From NCBI GenBank assembly GCA_902538225.1, contig CACBEF010000007.1:1-52195 (forward strand): DNA of 52,195 nt, written 5' to 3'. Numbering within the stretch: the stretch's first letter is position 1; every line of letters starts with the position of its first letter. The notes beneath the pieces are model-generated. The model saw nothing but the letters and a program-made list of their open reading frames with translations. It searched no databases and had not been told where the DNA came from. Positions 12,345 to 20,648 of this stretch are shown piece after piece. The DNA comes from an uncultured Prochlorococcus sp. (GTDB lineage Bacteria > Cyanobacteriota > Cyanobacteriia > PCC-6307 > Cyanobiaceae). The translations under genes and the position numbers were made by a program.

Positions 12345-12629
12345 TTATTTTTTCACTATTTTTTGGTCAATCAAACTAATCAAAGGGATAATGAAATTTA
12401 CATTTATTCCAACAGTGCACCATGTATAAATAATAAGAAAAAATATTTTTATAAATAAATTAGGTGGTAAGTTGAAAAATATTTTGAAAAAACCTCCAAT
12501 GAATAATACTAATATTCCAATTTGAAAAAGACCTTTGATTATCCATTTAAGTCCATTTTTTTTAATGTTTATATAAAACCAGAAAAAAACAAAACTAGAT
12601 AACAATAAATATATAAAATTTATGATCAT
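12345..12629 (-). CDS. hypothetical three-helix membrane protein, 94 aa
   Basis: Unrecognised. Three hydrophobic segments are visible (about residues 2-19, 34-54 and 58-84) with a basic KKNGLKWIIKG loop between the first two and a basic end (KIVKK). A TGATAATTATCA palindrome lies 45 bp upstream of its ATG, so metal- or iron-responsive control is conceivable. Confidence 0.45.
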   Translation of the reverse strand: MIINFIYLLLSSFVFFWFYINIKKNGLKWIIKGLFQIGILVLFIGGFFKIFFNLPPNLFIKIFFLIIYTWCTVGINVNFIIPLISLIDQKIVKK

Positions 12630-12673
12630 CTTTTTAGAGAAAATCTAATAAATTTGCCATTATCAAGGCATGA

Positions 12674-12685
12674 TGATAATTATCA
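12674..12685. promoter_or_regulatory. TGATAATTATCA palindrome, possible Fur/Zur-type site
   Basis: A perfect 12-bp palindrome lies in the intergenic region 45 bp upstream of the 94-aa membrane protein gene. It resembles half of the Fur/Zur consensus. The same 12-mer occurs once more, inside a coding region at 21645. In AT-rich DNA such a palindrome can occur by chance. Confidence 0.3.
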
Positions 12686-14492: not shown

Positions 14493-15278
14493 TTATTTGC
14501 GAAGCCTAGGAATCAAAAGAGATGCAACACAAATAACACTAATTGCAGGTCCAGGCGAAAGATTAAAGACTATAGAGAGAATAAATCCCAGAAGCGAGAT
14601 GCATAATCCAAAAAATGAAGACCTCATCATTGCAATCCTTAAACTATGAGCCTTATTTAGCCCTAACAAAGTTGGAGTAGAAAGAAGAGCAATTACAAGA
14701 ATTACTCCCACTGCTGACATTGAACTAACAATTACTAATGCCGTTGTAAAACTCAAAGCAAGGTTTAATAAAGAAACGTTTATACCACTTGCGGATGCAC
14801 CTTCTGGATCTAATCCAACATAAACAACCTTTTCATATCCAAAAGTCATTAAAGTTATAAATACTAAAAATGCAATTATTGTTCTAAGTAAATCTCCAAA
14901 ATTTGCTGTCAACAAATCCCCAAATAATACTGCCTCCAAATCAATCCTTATTCCGAGTATAGGAATAATAAGGACTCCAAACCCAAGCATTCCAGCAAGA
15001 ATTGTATTCATAACTGCTTCATAATTTTCACTTTTTCTATTAGTTAAACTTTCCGCAATTACTGAGCCCAAAAGACCACTTATAACACCACCAATTGAAG
15101 GGTGAATTCCAAGCGCTAATGCGAGAGCAAGTCCAGGCAACACACAATGAGAGATTAAATTAACTTGTAATAATCTCTTATGGGTGATTAATACAGTTCC
15201 CATAGCTGGACATAAAATTCCTGAAAATATAGTTATTATTAATGGAACCAACCACCAATTGTTATTAATAAAAGACAT
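14493..15278 (-). CDS. znuB: zinc ABC transporter permease (ZnuB-type, ABC-3 family)
   Basis: This 261-aa integral membrane protein has about eight hydrophobic segments and ABC-3 family features: the CPAMGTVLITHKRLLQVNLISHCVLPGLALA segment near the N-terminus, the conserved NTILAGMLGFGVL region, LDPEGASASGI before the central helix, and LLSTPTLLG toward the end. With ZnuC (15750-16514) and ZnuA (16652-18169) it forms a Zn(II) uptake system in the inner membrane. Unusually, zur separates it from znuC. The start is 17 bp from the divergent zur start. Confidence 0.9.
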   Translation of the reverse strand: MSFINNNWWLVPLIITIFSGILCPAMGTVLITHKRLLQVNLISHCVLPGLALALALGIHPSIGGVISGLLGSVIAESLTNRKSENYEAVMNTILAGMLGFGVLIIPILGIRIDLEAVLFGDLLTANFGDLLRTIIAFLVFITLMTFGYEKVVYVGLDPEGASASGINVSLLNLALSFTTALVIVSSMSAVGVILVIALLSTPTLLGLNKAHSLRIAMMRSSFFGLCISLLGFILSIVFNLSPGPAISVICVASLLIPRLRK

Positions 15279-15295: not shown

Positions 15296-15730
15296 ATGAT
15301 CAAAAATACGGGACAAAAAAAGATTTCGGAAACAATGGTAACTAAGTCTGACATTACCAAAAGACAGGAACAACTTCTTGAAGAACTTAATAAATGCGAG
15401 GATGAATTGAGTGGTCAAGAGTTGCATAGACAATTGATAGAAAGCGGAAAGGCTATGGGACTGACGACTGTTTACAGGAATCTTCAAGCTCTGATAAAGC
15501 ATGGCTTAATACGTTCTAGACATCTCCCAACAGGAGAGGTTCTGTACACTCCCGTAGATAGAGATATTCATCATTTGACCTGTGTTCAATGTGGTGAGAC
15601 ATCAAAAATGGAAGGATGCCCGGTAAAAGATATTCATACACCCAAAAAAAGTCCAAAAAAGTTTCAACTTTTGTTTCATACACTCGAATATTTCGGCCTT
15701 TGCCAAAACTGTTATCAAGCTCAAAATTAA
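15296..15730 (+). CDS. zur: zinc uptake regulator Zur (Fur family)
   Basis: A 144-aa Fur-family repressor. The winged helix is at about 20-85 (RQEQLLEELNKCEDELSGQELHRQLI, TTVYRNLQALIKHGLI). The dimerisation domain contains HHLTCVQCGETSKMEGCP and ends GLCQNCYQ; these two CxxC pairs form the structural Zn site. Placement among znuB, znuC and znuA makes Zur far more likely than Fur. ATG 15296 is the first start, but ATG 15338 (MVTKSDITKRQEQLL) is equally plausible and would enlarge the znuB-zur spacer to about 60 bp. Confidence 0.9.
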   Translation: MIKNTGQKKISETMVTKSDITKRQEQLLEELNKCEDELSGQELHRQLIESGKAMGLTTVYRNLQALIKHGLIRSRHLPTGEVLYTPVDRDIHHLTCVQCGETSKMEGCPVKDIHTPKKSPKKFQLLFHTLEYFGLCQNCYQAQN

Positions 15731-15749: not shown

Positions 15750-16514
15750 TCAGAAATTATTTTTCTTTATTGCGCTGATGTTTATTGCCTCTAATTTATC
15801 TTTTATTTGATAAGGACTACCAACTGCTAAAACACTTTTATCAAGAACTATTACTTGATCGTAGTTATTTAGAGACTCACCCCAATCATGGCTACTTACT
15901 AGTAAAGAAAGGCCCGAATCTGCAAGTTGACGAACAATTTTTAGAAAATCCTCTTTTGCAGGGGGATCCAATGCCGCACAAGGTTCATCTAAAAGAAATA
16001 TTTTTGCAGGGGACATAAGCGTTTTTGCTAATAGAGCTCTTTGTTGCTGTCCCCCTGAAAGAGAATCGAGTCTTCTATTAGCCAAATTTGCAATGCCTAC
16101 TCTTTGCATTGTCGCCTCTAATTCACAACATTTATTAATCCAAGAATTAGGATATGCTAGAAGAGCCTTGATTTGAAAGGGGTTGTTACTTCTTGATTTT
16201 GAATATTTTATTTGACCTAGAGATACCAATTTTTCAACTGTTATGGGAAACTTCCAATTCATAGAACTTCTTTGAGGCATAAGTGCTACAAGAGATCTAG
16301 ATATATATAAATTTTTACCGTCAATTTTTATTTCGCCTTTATCTGGAGTATTTTGTCCTTGCAATATCCTCAAAAGAGTGGATTTACCGGCCCCGTTTGG
16401 ACCTACTAGCGCTGTTAGAGTTCCAGGTTTAATCTCAACCGATACCTTATTTAAAGCTGGCTTACTTTTTTTTGTGTATGCAAAGGTTAAATTTTCAGCG
16501 ACTAAAGTAGCCAT
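15750..16514 (-). CDS. znuC: zinc ABC transporter ATP-binding protein
   Basis: A 254-aa ABC ATPase with Walker A GPNGAGKST (38-46), ABC signature LSGGQQQR (from 152), Walker B IFLLDEP (about 172-178) and the switch His in SSHDW. It energises uptake through ZnuB. It reads away from znuA, sharing a 137-bp divergent promoter region that contains the Zur-type palindrome, and converges on zur. Confidence 0.93.
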   Translation of the reverse strand: MATLVAENLTFAYTKKSKPALNKVSVEIKPGTLTALVGPNGAGKSTLLRILQGQNTPDKGEIKIDGKNLYISRSLVALMPQRSSMNWKFPITVEKLVSLGQIKYSKSRSNNPFQIKALLAYPNSWINKCCELEATMQRVGIANLANRRLDSLSGGQQQRALLAKTLMSPAKIFLLDEPCAALDPPAKEDFLKIVRQLADSGLSLLVSSHDWGESLNNYDQVIVLDKSVLAVGSPYQIKDKLEAINISAIKKNNF

Positions 16515-16614
16515 TAAATAATCTTCATGAAAAAGTCACTTTACAAGCTTACCAATAATACAAGATGCGTATTATTTTCATAACATTTGATACCTTTTCT
16601 TGTCAGTTGTAATG

Positions 16615-16631
16615 AAAATGATTATCATTTT
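16615..16631. promoter_or_regulatory. Zur box between znuC and znuA
   Basis: AAAATGATTATCATTTT is a perfect palindrome with 8-bp arms around a central T, and it matches the Fur/Zur-type operator pattern. It lies 20 bp before the znuA ATG and about 100 bp from the znuC start, so one site could repress both divergent genes when zinc is plentiful. Binding by the adjacent Zur is inferred. Confidence 0.8.
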
Positions 16632-16651: not shown

Positions 16652-18169
16652 ATGTCAATTTTTAAAAGACTAATAACAAAAAAAACAGGTTCAAGTAAGT
16701 CAATTATTAAAAATTCTTTGATCGCTGGAACGATAATATTTTCTGGTTTTGGGCAGGATGCGATAGCTAAAGGAAAGTCATATGTAGCAGTTGAACCACT
16801 AGTTTGTGATTTAGTTAAATCAATTGCATTACCTTCTGACGAAGTTACATGCCTAGTAGATAGAAAACAGGATGTTCATGATTTAAAGATAAATCCAAGA
16901 CAAGCTCAATTACTTGATAGCGCAGACAAAGTGTTCACTCTTGGTAAAGAAATGACTCCAACTATGAGAAATTGGGAAAATAAAAAGAATACTGTTGTTG
17001 TAGGTGTTAGTGCAATAGACGTAGATGATCATTCTGATCATGGAGGACACGATGATCACTCAGATCATGGAGGACATGATGATCATGCTGAACATTCGGC
17101 TAAGGTAGATGATCATTCAGACCATGGTGGACATGATGATCATGCTGAGGGTGCTTTCGAATGGGCAGGTAAATTCCAACTTTCTAAGGGTTCATACAAA
17201 TGGTCATTTGAAAAAGTGGATGGAGAATATGCAGATCCTGCAATGAAGATGGTAATTCTTAAGTCTAATGATATAGAAGGATCTGAAGATTTAGCTAAAG
17301 AATTATTAGGATCTAAAGACTCAATAAGCAGAAAAAATAATGGTACTTTGATCGCAAGTAATAAAGCTTTTATTCTTAACTTTGATCAAAGAAAAGAAAG
17401 CACTGTTTTTAATGTGGATATCAAAGAAGATGGTGAATATATATTTTTTACAGAACACATGCCTTTTGAGTTTGAAGCAACTCAACACTTCTTTAAAGAC
17501 GTTTTAAATAGTGATGTCGAGCCAATAGCACAAGTACCAGACGAAGGCGAGGGACATCATCACCATCATGACCATGGAGGTCTAGATCCACATGTATGGC
17601 ATGATCCACATAACATCATAAAAATGGGAAATGTTATAAGCAAAAGTTTAAAGAAAGATATTTCAGTTTTTAATAGAGGGGACAGAAAATTAATTAATGA
17701 AAGATTCGAAAAAGCTGATTCACTCTTAGAAGGCTTAGATAGTTGGATCGTCGAACAAGTAAACTCTATTCCTGAGGAAAACAGAGTAATTGTTTCTAAA
17801 CACAAAGCAATGGAATACTACGGTGATGCTTTTGGTTTTGAAACTATTAGTTTACTTGACTTTCTTGGAGACTCCTCAAGCTTAAGACCAGAGAACATAA
17901 GTTCTACTTTGAAAATGTTAGATGAAGAGAAAGTCCGGGCAATATTTCCTGAACAAATTCCAGCATCTAAGTTATTAAGAAATTTAAGTAGACAAAGTTC
18001 GGTTCCTTTAGCTTCTAATCAAATATTCGTTGATGGATTGATGATGGACGGGAATACGGTTTCAGTAGCTGTTCACAACACTTGCACAATTGTTGATTCA
18101 TTAGGAGGAAGTTGCGATAAAGAATCTGGCTCCAATCTTGAGACTGAATGGTACAAACTTTCAGATTAA
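16652..18169 (+). CDS. znuA: zinc ABC transporter substrate-binding protein with inserted domain
   Basis: A 505-aa periplasmic Zn-binding protein, much longer than the usual 300-330 aa. The N-terminal export signal ends near AIAKG (about 40). Lobe 1 has VHDLKINPRQ with ligand His76. A His/Asp-rich loop of DDHSDHGGH repeats follows (125-165), then an extra domain (about 169-290, FEWAGKFQL...FFTEHMPFEF), a second His run (302-308), and DPHVWHDP (His314). Lobe 2 carries SKHKAMEYYGDAFG (His383). The extra domain resembles one in the neighbouring COG0523 protein. A Zur box lies just upstream. Confidence 0.93.
   Translation: MSIFKRLITKKTGSSKSIIKNSLIAGTIIFSGFGQDAIAKGKSYVAVEPLVCDLVKSIALPSDEVTCLVDRKQDVHDLKINPRQAQLLDSADKVFTLGKEMTPTMRNWENKKNTVVVGVSAIDVDDHSDHGGHDDHSDHGGHDDHAEHSAKVDDHSDHGGHDDHAEGAFEWAGKFQLSKGSYKWSFEKVDGEYADPAMKMVILKSNDIEGSEDLAKELLGSKDSISRKNNGTLIASNKAFILNFDQRKESTVFNVDIKEDGEYIFFTEHMPFEFEATQHFFKDVLNSDVEPIAQVPDEGEGHHHHHDHGGLDPHVWHDPHNIIKMGNVISKSLKKDISVFNRGDRKLINERFEKADSLLEGLDSWIVEQVNSIPEENRVIVSKHKAMEYYGDAFGFETISLLDFLGDSSSLRPENISSTLKMLDEEKVRAIFPEQIPASKLLRNLSRQSSVPLASNQIFVDGLMMDGNTVSVAVHNTCTIVDSLGGSCDKESGSNLETEWYKLSD
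17024..17146 (+). repeat. in-gene tandem repeat encoding the ZnuA His-rich loop
   Basis: A degenerate 27-base unit encoding DDHSDHGGH is repeated three times, with two shorter DDHAE variants (residues 125-165 of ZnuA). His-rich loops in ZnuA proteins are thought to help capture zinc. Such repeats commonly vary in copy number between strains. Confidence 0.8.
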
Positions 18170-18246
18170 ATTTTTCCATTAAAAACGGTTTTCATTCCTT
18201 ATTTTTATTATTATTAAACTATTATTTATTTTGTAAAAATCAGTAA

Positions 18247-19602
18247 ATGAGCATCAAAGATAGAGTTCCCGTAACAATCCTCACTGGATTCCTTGGTTCA
18301 GGGAAAACGACTCTTCTTAATAGAATATTAAGTGAAGAGCATGGTAAAAGAATAGCTGTAATTGAGAATGAATACGGAGAAGTGGGTATAGATCAAGGGC
18401 TCGTAATTAATGCAGATGAAGAAGTATTTGAGATGTCAAATGGGTGCATTTGTTGTACTGTTCGCGGAGATTTAATAAGAGTACTTGGCAACCTTATGAA
18501 AAGAAGAGATAAGTTTGACTATGTTTTAGTAGAAACCACAGGATTAGCAGATCCAGGCCCAGTTGCTCAGACTTTTTTCATGGATGAAGAAATTAGTTCC
18601 GAATTTACTCTCGATGGAATTGTGACTTTAGTTGATGCTGCTCATATTGATCAGCAATTAGGAAGAAGTGATGAAAGTTCAGAACAAGTTGCGTTTGCAG
18701 ATGTTCTTGTCCTAAATAAAACTGATTTAGTTTCTGATGATGCTCTAGATACTCTTGAATCAAGATTGAGAGATATGAACCGAATGACTCGAATTATTCG
18801 AGCCGAGAATGCCCAAGTACCCATCGAAACAGTCCTAAATCTAAGTGCATTTGATCTCGATCAAATCCTTAAACGCAGACCAACATTTCTTGAACCAGAA
18901 TATCCTTTTGAATGGACAGGTGTTTACGACCTTGCTGCAGGTAAATATGAATTAATGCTAGAAGAAGGTCCCGATCCAGAAATGTCATTAGTAGCTTTCG
19001 CTAATCAAAATGAGAGTGAAGAAGAACTTAAAGATGGCGCTGAAACCTGCGTAAGACTTTATGCAGAAAAGGCTAAAAGCTTAGAACCTGGGAATATCAT
19101 TCCATTTGGAGAACATATAAACCTTAAATTGGAGGATAAAGGAAATAAATCATTCATATTAGATATCGAAAAGGGCTCAAAGATAGGTTTATATACACAG
19201 CACACTGCTGAAGAATTCAATATGAAAATCATTAAAAGTGAAGACAATAATTCAAAAGAGATCCCATTTAATATTGAAAGATTCTGGCAAGCCGAGCACG
19301 AGCACGATGATGAAGTAACGTCAATTGCAATTGAACGATTTGGAGATGTTGATCCAGAAAAACTTAATACTTGGTTGGGCAGACTTCTTTCTGAAAAAGG
19401 GGTGGATATATTTAGAACTAAAGGTTTCATTAGCTACTCAGGGAACCCACAGAGAATTGTTTTCCAAGGGGTACATATGTTATTTACAGCGCAACCTGAT
19501 AAAGAATGGGGTAACGAACCTCGTAGAAACCAACTTGTTTTTATAGGTAGGAATTTGAATGAGAAAGAGATGCAAGAAGGTTTTGAAAAATGCCTGATAT
19601 AG
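18247..19602 (+). CDS. COG0523 (CobW/ZNG1-type) GTPase, putative zinc metallochaperone, with inserted domain
   Basis: G3E-family GTPase. P-loop GFLGSGKTT (14-22), ENEYGEVGID switch, the metal-binding CICC motif (67-70), ETTGLADPGP, and NKTD (157-160) for guanine specificity. The C-terminal CobW_C domain starts after the HEHDDE run (341-346) and includes VDIFRTKGFISYSG. Between the two halves lies an insertion (211 to about 320: FEWTGVYDLAAGKY, GPDPEMSLV, YTQHTAEEF) like the one in ZnuA. Family members deliver metals; the znu context indicates zinc. The end overlaps the next gene by 13 bp. Confidence 0.9.
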   Translation: MSIKDRVPVTILTGFLGSGKTTLLNRILSEEHGKRIAVIENEYGEVGIDQGLVINADEEVFEMSNGCICCTVRGDLIRVLGNLMKRRDKFDYVLVETTGLADPGPVAQTFFMDEEISSEFTLDGIVTLVDAAHIDQQLGRSDESSEQVAFADVLVLNKTDLVSDDALDTLESRLRDMNRMTRIIRAENAQVPIETVLNLSAFDLDQILKRRPTFLEPEYPFEWTGVYDLAAGKYELMLEEGPDPEMSLVAFANQNESEEELKDGAETCVRLYAEKAKSLEPGNIIPFGEHINLKLEDKGNKSFILDIEKGSKIGLYTQHTAEEFNMKIIKSEDNNSKEIPFNIERFWQAEHEHDDEVTSIAIERFGDVDPEKLNTWLGRLLSEKGVDIFRTKGFISYSGNPQRIVFQGVHMLFTAQPDKEWGNEPRRNQLVFIGRNLNEKEMQEGFEKCLI

Positions 19603-20648
19603 AGTCATTTAGCCCAAGAGGTATGTTCCACGAGGGATGGAAAGCTGAAGTTAATGATTATGCCATAGTCTGTGGTTGGGCTATTAAAGGAAAGTTATTC
19701 ATTGTTGGGGATGTAGCAGGAGGTATTTTTGCCTTTGAAGGAGATACTGGGAAAATTATTTGGAAAAAAGAAAATACACACTCTGCTGGTCTATTAGCAA
19801 TGTCCATTCATCCAGAAGGAGAGATTTTTGCAACTTCAGGTCAAGATGGAAATATTCAAATATATAATTGCCACGAAGGTAAAGTAATTAAAACTCTCGA
19901 TCTTGGCAAGGCTTGGGTAGAGCACCTTAAGTGGTCAAATGATGGCTTATTTCTTGCAGCAGCTTCTTCAAAAAAAGTATATGTTTTTAATGAAATTGGT
20001 GAAGAAAAATGGAAATCAGATGATCATCCAAGCACAGTGAGTGCAATAAAATGGTCAAATAATAATGAGCTAGCTACAGCCTGCTACGGGAGAGTAACAT
20101 TCTTTGACATAGTAAATAATAAAACGAATCAAAAGCTCGAGTGGCAAGGATCATTAGTCTCAATGGAATTAAGTCCTGATGGTGATATAGTCGCTTGCGG
20201 GAGTCAAGACAATTCAGTTCATTTTTGGAGAAGATCAACCGGAATTGATGCTGAAATGACAGGATACCCAGGAAAACCTAGTCACCTTTCTTTTGACGAT
20301 AGTGGAAAATTACTGGCAACTAGTGGCAGTGAAAGAATTACAGTGTGGAGCTTTATAGGTGACGGTCCCGAGGGAACTATGCCGGGAGAGCTATGGCACC
20401 ATACCGAACCTATTTCTAGCCTAGCCTTTTCAAATAAAGGCATGCTTGTAGCTTCCGGATCTAGAGATGGTTCTGTTGTCGCAAGTTTTCTAAAAAAAGA
20501 CGGTAATGGTGATCCAGTTGGGGCTGCATTCGCAGGCGATTTAGTGGGTGCACTTTCGTGGAGACCTGATGATTGTGCACTAGCTGCAGTTAACGCAAAA
20601 GGTGTGGTAAATGTTTGGAAATTTAAAGTTCGTACTAATTCTTTTTGA
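19590..20648 (+). CDS. WD40-repeat beta-propeller protein linked to the COG0523 GTPase
   Basis: 352 aa composed of WD40 repeats, with blade ends such as DGNIQIYN, KKVYVFN, DNSVHFWRR, ERITVWSF, DGSVVASF and NVWKF; six to seven blades are likely. There is no signal peptide or membrane segment, so it is cytoplasmic. ATG 19590 lies 13 bp inside the end of the COG0523 gene, which suggests translational coupling and a shared job. WD40 propellers are scaffolds; a role in presenting metal acceptor proteins is inference. Confidence 0.88.
   Translation: MPDIESFSPRGMFHEGWKAEVNDYAIVCGWAIKGKLFIVGDVAGGIFAFEGDTGKIIWKKENTHSAGLLAMSIHPEGEIFATSGQDGNIQIYNCHEGKVIKTLDLGKAWVEHLKWSNDGLFLAAASSKKVYVFNEIGEEKWKSDDHPSTVSAIKWSNNNELATACYGRVTFFDIVNNKTNQKLEWQGSLVSMELSPDGDIVACGSQDNSVHFWRRSTGIDAEMTGYPGKPSHLSFDDSGKLLATSGSERITVWSFIGDGPEGTMPGELWHHTEPISSLAFSNKGMLVASGSRDGSVVASFLKKDGNGDPVGAAFAGDLVGALSWRPDDCALAAVNAKGVVNVWKFKVRTNSF

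Follow-up and report, generated by a model that had tools for sequence, protein, structure and literature searches.

A 52,195-nucleotide stretch of an uncultured Prochlorococcus sp. (assembly GCA_902538225.1, contig CACBEF010000007.1, positions 1 to 52,195; hereafter the window) carries a zinc locus in which two neighbouring genes, one for a zinc-type ABC solute-binding protein (ZnuA) and one for a COG0523 (CobW-family) GTPase, each contain an inserted domain of about 108 residues. Sequence comparison indicates that the ZnuA insert and the GTPase insert are homologous. It is proposed, with moderate confidence, that a single movable domain of transition-metal proteins, undescribed and of beta-sandwich type, is present in both, and that it would dock or relay metal. 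The two genes (lengths in amino acids, aa) and their inserts are located as follows.

16652..18169, + strand: znuA, zinc-type ABC solute-binding protein with the inserted domain, 505 aa (open reading frame, ORF; Pfam PF01297, E 2.5e-42)
17156..17482, + strand: shared domain, ZnuA copy, residues 169-277, with the quartet E170, D195, H269 and E273
18247..19602, + strand: COG0523 (CobW-family) GTPase with the inserted domain, 451 aa (ORF; Pfam)
18907..19227, + strand: shared domain, GTPase copy, residues 221-327, with the quartet E222, D243, H319 and E323

Homology of the ZnuA and GTPase inserts

The Pfam model PF01297 matches the window ZnuA in two stretches, one in each part of the protein. In the window GTPase, in which a P-loop is present, cobW was matched at residues 8-184 (E 2.2e-61) and CobW_C at residues 358-450 (E 5.7e-25), and the insert lies between these two domains. 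The resemblance between the inserts had been spotted by eye in a preliminary description of this DNA, and the shared pattern was confirmed by shuffles, reciprocal searches and a profile-profile match. The Smith-Waterman comparison of ZnuA residues 161-300 with GTPase residues 206-345 gave a score of 76, against a mean of 30.6 (standard deviation 5.4) and a maximum of 56 in 2000 shuffles, and a two-sequence blastp comparison of the whole ZnuA with the whole GTPase gave E 7e-5. When the ZnuA insert was used as a single query, the GTPase insert was recovered in 21 of 60 genomes, that of the window included (E 4.6e-5 to 0.0096), at positions also hit by the GTPase insert itself, and the reverse search with the GTPase insert returned 16 ZnuA rows; these single-sequence cross-matches are individually weak (E about 1e-5 to 0.01). 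The profile of one insert did recover the other, as hhalign of a ZnuA-only profile (13 copies) against a GTPase-only profile (20 copies) gave a probability of 99.4% (E 1.7e-21), compared with 0.1% for the reversed profile and at most 0.9% for 40 column shuffles. Chance likeness between two low-information inserts, which the detection by eye and an identity of only 20-26% in the alignments might suggest, is refuted by the shuffles, the reciprocal searches and the profile match with its controls, and deserves practically no credence.

As for the limits of the inserts, the start first proposed for ZnuA, residue 169, was retained, whereas that proposed for the GTPase, residue 211, proved to be about 10 residues early (core 221-327). 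Just these two copies of the domain were seen in searches of the window genome, the completeness of which is about 67.5%. The same module is thus present in an exported and in a cytoplasmic protein of one zinc locus, as had been described, the compartments being those expected from the protein families and the N-terminus.

Predicted fold, conserved residues and histidine-rich flanks

The ZnuA insert was modelled with AlphaFold from a 44-row alignment (predicted local distance difference test, pLDDT, 86.1; predicted template modelling score, pTM, 0.78) and the full-length GTPase from a 31-row GTPase alignment (pLDDT 81.6, pTM 0.64). Nearly the same strand-helix order was predicted for both inserts (b-b-b-helix-b...b, b being a beta-strand), with an extra short strand (67-69) in the ZnuA model; the 44-row alignment includes GTPase rows, and the two models are not fully independent. 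The models point to a beta-sandwich and to nothing narrower. In Foldseek no match reached E 0.001, and most of the 50 rows shown were influenza haemagglutinins at E 0.014 or worse, taken as noise. Every match in the fold comparison (VIA) was below Z 5. The best one, 1olm (Z 4.9, root-mean-square deviation, rmsd, 3.1, 85 residues aligned), falls in a range that the tool calls uninformative, and its matched C-terminal part is presumably a GOLD domain. The protein 5azw, which is named GOLD, falls in the same range (Z 4.1, rmsd 3.5, 78 aligned), and the CBM35 sugar-binding module 2w1w gave Z 3.8 (rmsd 3.7, 85 aligned).

No significant match of the domain was found in Pfam, NCBIfam or PDB sequences (best PDB E 0.28). 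Among 42 copies of the domain, none matched the ZinT profile, which we take Pfam to contain, even at an E cut-off of 1; having no Pfam support in this set, a ZinT identity was rejected. The second domain of the zinc-binding protein AdcA, by contrast, is presumably ZinT-like. Cupredoxin_1 was weakly matched by 2 of the 42 copies (best E 0.052), and weak library matches overlapping the domain in whole hosts (TmcD_fam, E 0.005, in locus L182) were discarded as far under the curated cut-offs. No description of the domain was found in the literature by title and abstract opening among the matches listed, and the word undescribed is used within that scope.

Residues were counted in the 209 of 266 unique copies that cover at least 80% of the model. 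A quartet of acidic residues and histidine in the order E, D, H, E, located at the ends of predicted strands, is strongly conserved: the H is kept in 207 copies, the D and the first E in 204 each, and the last E in 201. Among 74 non-redundant, near-full-length copies, the full quartet is found in 67. In the window, histidine-rich stretches flank the ZnuA copy, and an HEH follows the GTPase copy.

17027..17146, + strand: His/Asp-rich stretch before the domain, ZnuA residues 126-165 (from sequence)
17555..17575, + strand: HHHHHDH stretch after the domain, ZnuA residues 302-308 (from sequence)
19297..19305, + strand: HEH after the domain, GTPase residues 351-353 (from sequence)

Across 67 ZnuA copies, the mean His content was 18% in the 40 residues before the domain and 20% after it, against 2% elsewhere. 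An HxH within 45 residues after the domain was observed in 97% of these ZnuA copies and in 85% of 145 GTPase copies, and both His of the GTPase HEH are invariant in 31 aligned GTPases.

Hosts, distribution and lineage

The domain was found in COG0523 GTPases of many phyla, and inside the ZnuA of picocyanobacteria, haloarchaea and one verrucomicrobium. It is present in 24 of 291 genomes of the class Cyanobacteriia. With a broader profile it was detected in 3 of 299 genomes of the class of Paenibacillus, and in at least 7 of 246, 2 of 349, 27 of 288 and 12 of 199 genomes of the phyla of Rubrobacter, Methylocaldum, the verrucomicrobia and Granulicella, respectively; these four phylum counts are lower bounds, as in many genomes only part of the first-look candidates was scored. 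A scan of a species-genome collection with a GTPase-led query returned 288 relatives, and the best 80 of these comprised 79 copies in GTPases, four of which are truncated at the edge of a contig, and one copy from a CDF exporter of Paenibacillus. Searches of plasmids added haloarchaeal ZnuA copies, haloarchaeal stand-alone lipoproteins, a membrane protein of Alicyclobacillus and GTPases of Pantoea (one broken). No match of the domain was found in phages, and 44 pattern hits in viral contigs included no relative.

A motif-based census of 225 unique copies, a set rich in near-identical picocyanobacteria, assigned 145 to GTPases, 67 to ZnuA and 13 to other hosts. By eye, another five ZnuA were recognised among these 13 (one broken, one verrucomicrobial and three truncated at the ends of their loci), along with a broken piece of a GTPase, a CDF exporter, four stand-alone proteins and two membrane proteins that have His-rich stretches and belong to no known family. 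None of the 225 copies was found in a recognisably unrelated host, in loci that were gathered with the domain itself and are not a random sample. The 39 loci fetched after the census added 38 GTPases and one ZnuA, the latter taken from the same verrucomicrobial sequence as locus L149, in which the domain occurs in both GTPase and ZnuA, as in the window. The CDF host (Pfam Cation_efflux, E 1.6e-40) carries the domain at the end of the exporter. One stand-alone copy immediately precedes genes for CbiM, CbiQ and an ABC ATPase, and another immediately follows ureF in a urease operon.

These hosts bear on what had been expected of the domain. Its matches do lie almost only in metal proteins, but they are not confined to zinc, given the nickel/cobalt neighbours and the CDF exporter, and for the same reason the idea of a module special to this zinc locus is not supported. 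The claim that the canonical families have no such insertion holds for Escherichia coli YjiA and for the ZnuA of G024, a genome of the same genus, but not for many COG0523 GTPases and some ZnuAs.

Other forms of the hosts were observed. A membrane protein with the domain inside a His-rich loop was found near metal transport genes in two loci (L222:4744-5904 and L085:3779-4690); it had no significant match in Pfam or curated NCBIfam and may be an undescribed metal exporter. Broken copies were the domain-bearing GTPase of L231 (Pantoea soli plasmid) and the ZnuA of L084 (Haloarcula halophila plasmid), and many GTPases of Verrucomicrobiota (L237-L257) have a strongly drifted or interrupted domain with a partial profile match. 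In L067 (genome G215) the ZnuA ORF exceeds 800 aa, with two ZnuA halves parted by a run of N, which may be an assembly or masking effect and not a real tandem gene.

A review states that the annotated ZnuA cluster is almost entirely absent from Prochlorococcus (excerpt of PMC8786288). Since a domain-bearing ZnuA was nevertheless found in 23 loci titled Prochlorococcus (within L103-L158), this form of the protein may be filed elsewhere in annotation.

The number of copies per ZnuA also varies. In G024, which is 99% complete, a 365-aa ZnuA at the same place has a plain His-rich loop without the domain and the GTPase retains it, and in G032 and G023 ZnuA carries the domain twice in tandem. In a tree of 53 chosen copies, with three very long end branches and a root set only at the midpoint, ZnuA and haloarchaeal stand-alone copies were split from GTPase and exporter copies (95/92). 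The nearest named neighbours of the window genome in this tree are Prochlorococcus, as expected of a picocyanobacterium of that kind. The approximately unbiased (AU) test rejected neither an all-ZnuA clade (p 0.438) nor an all-GTPase clade (p 0.362), so that ZnuA may have acquired the domain in one or in several insertions. Because the tree puts the two inserts in separate lineages, copying from one gene to its neighbour is an improbable origin of the window pair. The adjacency of the two genes in the window and in relatives would speak for such local copying, but the copy in the window ZnuA clusters with those of verrucomicrobia and haloarchaea (95/92), apart from the neighbouring GTPase copy, and local copying is given next to no probability as the source of the resemblance.

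The zinc locus and a putative role in metal handling

The remaining features of the locus are the following.

14493..15278, - strand: znuB-type ABC permease (Pfam ABC-3, E 5.2e-42; znuB label from its place)
15296..15730, + strand: FUR-family regulator, likely Zur (Pfam FUR, E 1e-18; the Zur label inferred from its place)
15750..16514, - strand: znuC-type ABC ATPase (Pfam ABC_tran, E 1.3e-30; znuC label from its place)
16613..16627, + strand: Zur-box-like palindrome with 1 mismatch to the presumed consensus, 24 bp upstream of znuA
18445..18456, + strand: CICC (CxCC) motif of the GTPase, residues 67-70 (from sequence)
19590..20648, + strand: WD40-repeat protein gene, next after the GTPase (Pfam WD40)

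Two Zur-box-like sites with at most one mismatch were found in the window against 0.05 expected; with up to three mismatches allowed, such sites were not enriched over shuffles (20 vs 16.3). The second palindrome (12671-12685, 1 mismatch) lies 41 bp upstream of the start of a minus-strand ORF of 94 aa (12345-12629). The zinc locus of the window looks Zur-controlled. Zur represses the cluster synw0968-0973 of Synechococcus WH8102, in which znuC and znuA are divergent; two genes of the cluster, synw0972 and synw0973, are termed uncharacterized (PMC9337993; this and the other papers below are cited from excerpts).

By gene context, the GTPase comes closest to COG0523 subfamily 5, a group that is linked to zinc limitation, is encoded in clusters with WD40 and znuABC, and includes most eukaryotic COG0523 homologs (Haas et al. 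2009, PMC2770081). WD40 and znuABC genes likewise lie beside the window GTPase; by contrast with the latter, no inserted domain is described for the subfamily in the excerpts of that paper. The WD40 gene also adjoins the domain-bearing GTPase in loci L098, L096 and L229, and in L166 (metagenome-assembled genome of Acidobacteriales) a domain-bearing GTPase and a WD40-like stretch, recognised by eye, are apparently fused in one open frame. The best structural match of the GTPase model was E. coli YjiA (PDB 1nij, Z 17.4; also 4ixm), which has the same GTPase and CobW_C domains; its rmsd of 17.6 over 260 aligned residues suggests a different arrangement of domains in the model. YjiA differs in being without the insert: at that point the profile alignment skips from residue 214 of the chain directly to 220.

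Among zinc solute-binding proteins, AdcA, a lipoprotein of the ZnuA type, resembles the window ZnuA in having an extra domain and a His-rich loop. Growth at low zinc is hurt by the loss of both but not of either alone, and the two jointly aid zinc recruitment under restriction (PMC7858048). The extra domain of AdcA is C-terminal, whereas that of the window ZnuA is embedded in the His-rich loop, matches nothing in Pfam significantly and occurs also in GTPases and exporters. The cyanobacterial zinc exoprotein ZepA is comparable in its Zur-linked zinc acquisition outside the cytoplasm and in a gene context that often includes ZnuA and COG0523 genes (PMC10957091); a ZepA identity was rejected, as the ZepA zinc motif (H-X2-9-H-F/Y-H; PMC10957091) is absent from the conserved columns of the shared domain. 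In the literature passages on the diatom protein ZCRP-A no such domain is mentioned.

Judged by its hosts, the domain is probably a metal-handling unit that can be reused. As suggested in the preliminary description, it may plausibly sense, buffer or hand over metal; a common protein partner, also suggested there, is given less weight than a common ligand, since the hosts belong to unrelated families on both sides of the membrane. In the proposed mechanism, E, D, H and E would form one metal site, and the His-rich arms, represented in most GTPases by the HxH shortly after the domain, would gather zinc and load it. The domain would then hand zinc to the host's own site, either the cleft of the solute-binding protein or the CxCC/GTP site, which would be useful when zinc is scarce. 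This would take place in the periplasm from within the His-rich loop of ZnuA, and in the cytoplasm within a zinc-type chaperone GTPase, whose GTPase domain and CobW_C enclose the domain. Zinc, nickel or cobalt would be gathered by it in exporters and stand-alone lipoproteins.

Several observations weigh against this docking role. Three acidic residues and one histidine do not make a classic high-affinity zinc site. Conservation alone singles out no metal site, as the quartet is equalled in this respect by a Gly (204 of 209 copies) and a Trp (202). The 57 of 266 copies left out of the residue counts, which cover less than 80% of the model, include many drifted verrucomicrobial ones. The full quartet is not shown by 7 of the 74 near-full-length copies, four of them by gaps alone; the other three are L231, a broken gene, and L241, each with a gap and a change, and L236, with three changes. 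In GTPase copies a His-rich stretch is absent in front of the domain (0.5% His), and in 15% of them no HxH occurs within the 45 residues that follow the domain. The domain is dispensable in ZnuA, since the G024 protein is without it while the GTPase copy was kept. Finally, no metal-transport genes are annotated within about 4 kb of the stand-alone haloarchaeal copies L086 and L087.

Some of these points would suit a protein-interaction or structural spacer, in which the quartet would hold the fold or a contact and only the His-rich neighbours would bind metal. The position of the quartet at predicted strand ends, alongside equally kept Gly and aromatic residues as in a folding core, the adjacent WD40 gene, which hints at protein contacts, and the G024 ZnuA are consistent with it. 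However, unrelated host families in both compartments leave no plausible common partner except a ligand, and L182 keeps the quartet although other well-kept positions are changed; we regard the spacer as unlikely, though a serious candidate. Another alternative is that the domain binds not free metal but a metal complex or other small ligand (a sugar, an organic acid or a metallophore), which would fit the faint fold likeness to GOLD domains and CBM35 and the stand-alone lipoproteins. This alternative is distinctly improbable, given that a GTPase also contains the domain, that a CDF exporter ends with it and that all fold matches are as weak as stated above. A zinc sensor gating its host, for example its GTP hydrolysis or hand-over, would agree with the location between GTPase domain and CobW_C, the conserved residues and the Zur-like boxes, but no switch is visible, and ZnuA, CDF and stand-alone hosts have no common activity that could be gated in one way, so that very little weight is given to it.

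Accessory metal-recruiting segments of transporters, such as His-rich loops and the second domain of AdcA, are already known. What appears to be new here, judging from the sequences compared, is a putative accessory metal-recruiting domain common to unrelated metal proteins. In its widest form, the docking role would make this a dedicated movable domain of bacteria and archaea, placing the same receiving site for zinc, nickel or cobalt outside and inside the cell in importers, chaperone GTPases, exporters and free lipoproteins; this extension is tentative, and we rate it as possible rather than probable. One domain common to an importer, a cytoplasmic chaperone and an exporter would tie these steps together. 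It would also offer a handle on the use of zinc by the COG0523 group near the eukaryotic ones, and on the scavenging of zinc by the picocyanobacteria of zinc-poor oceans.

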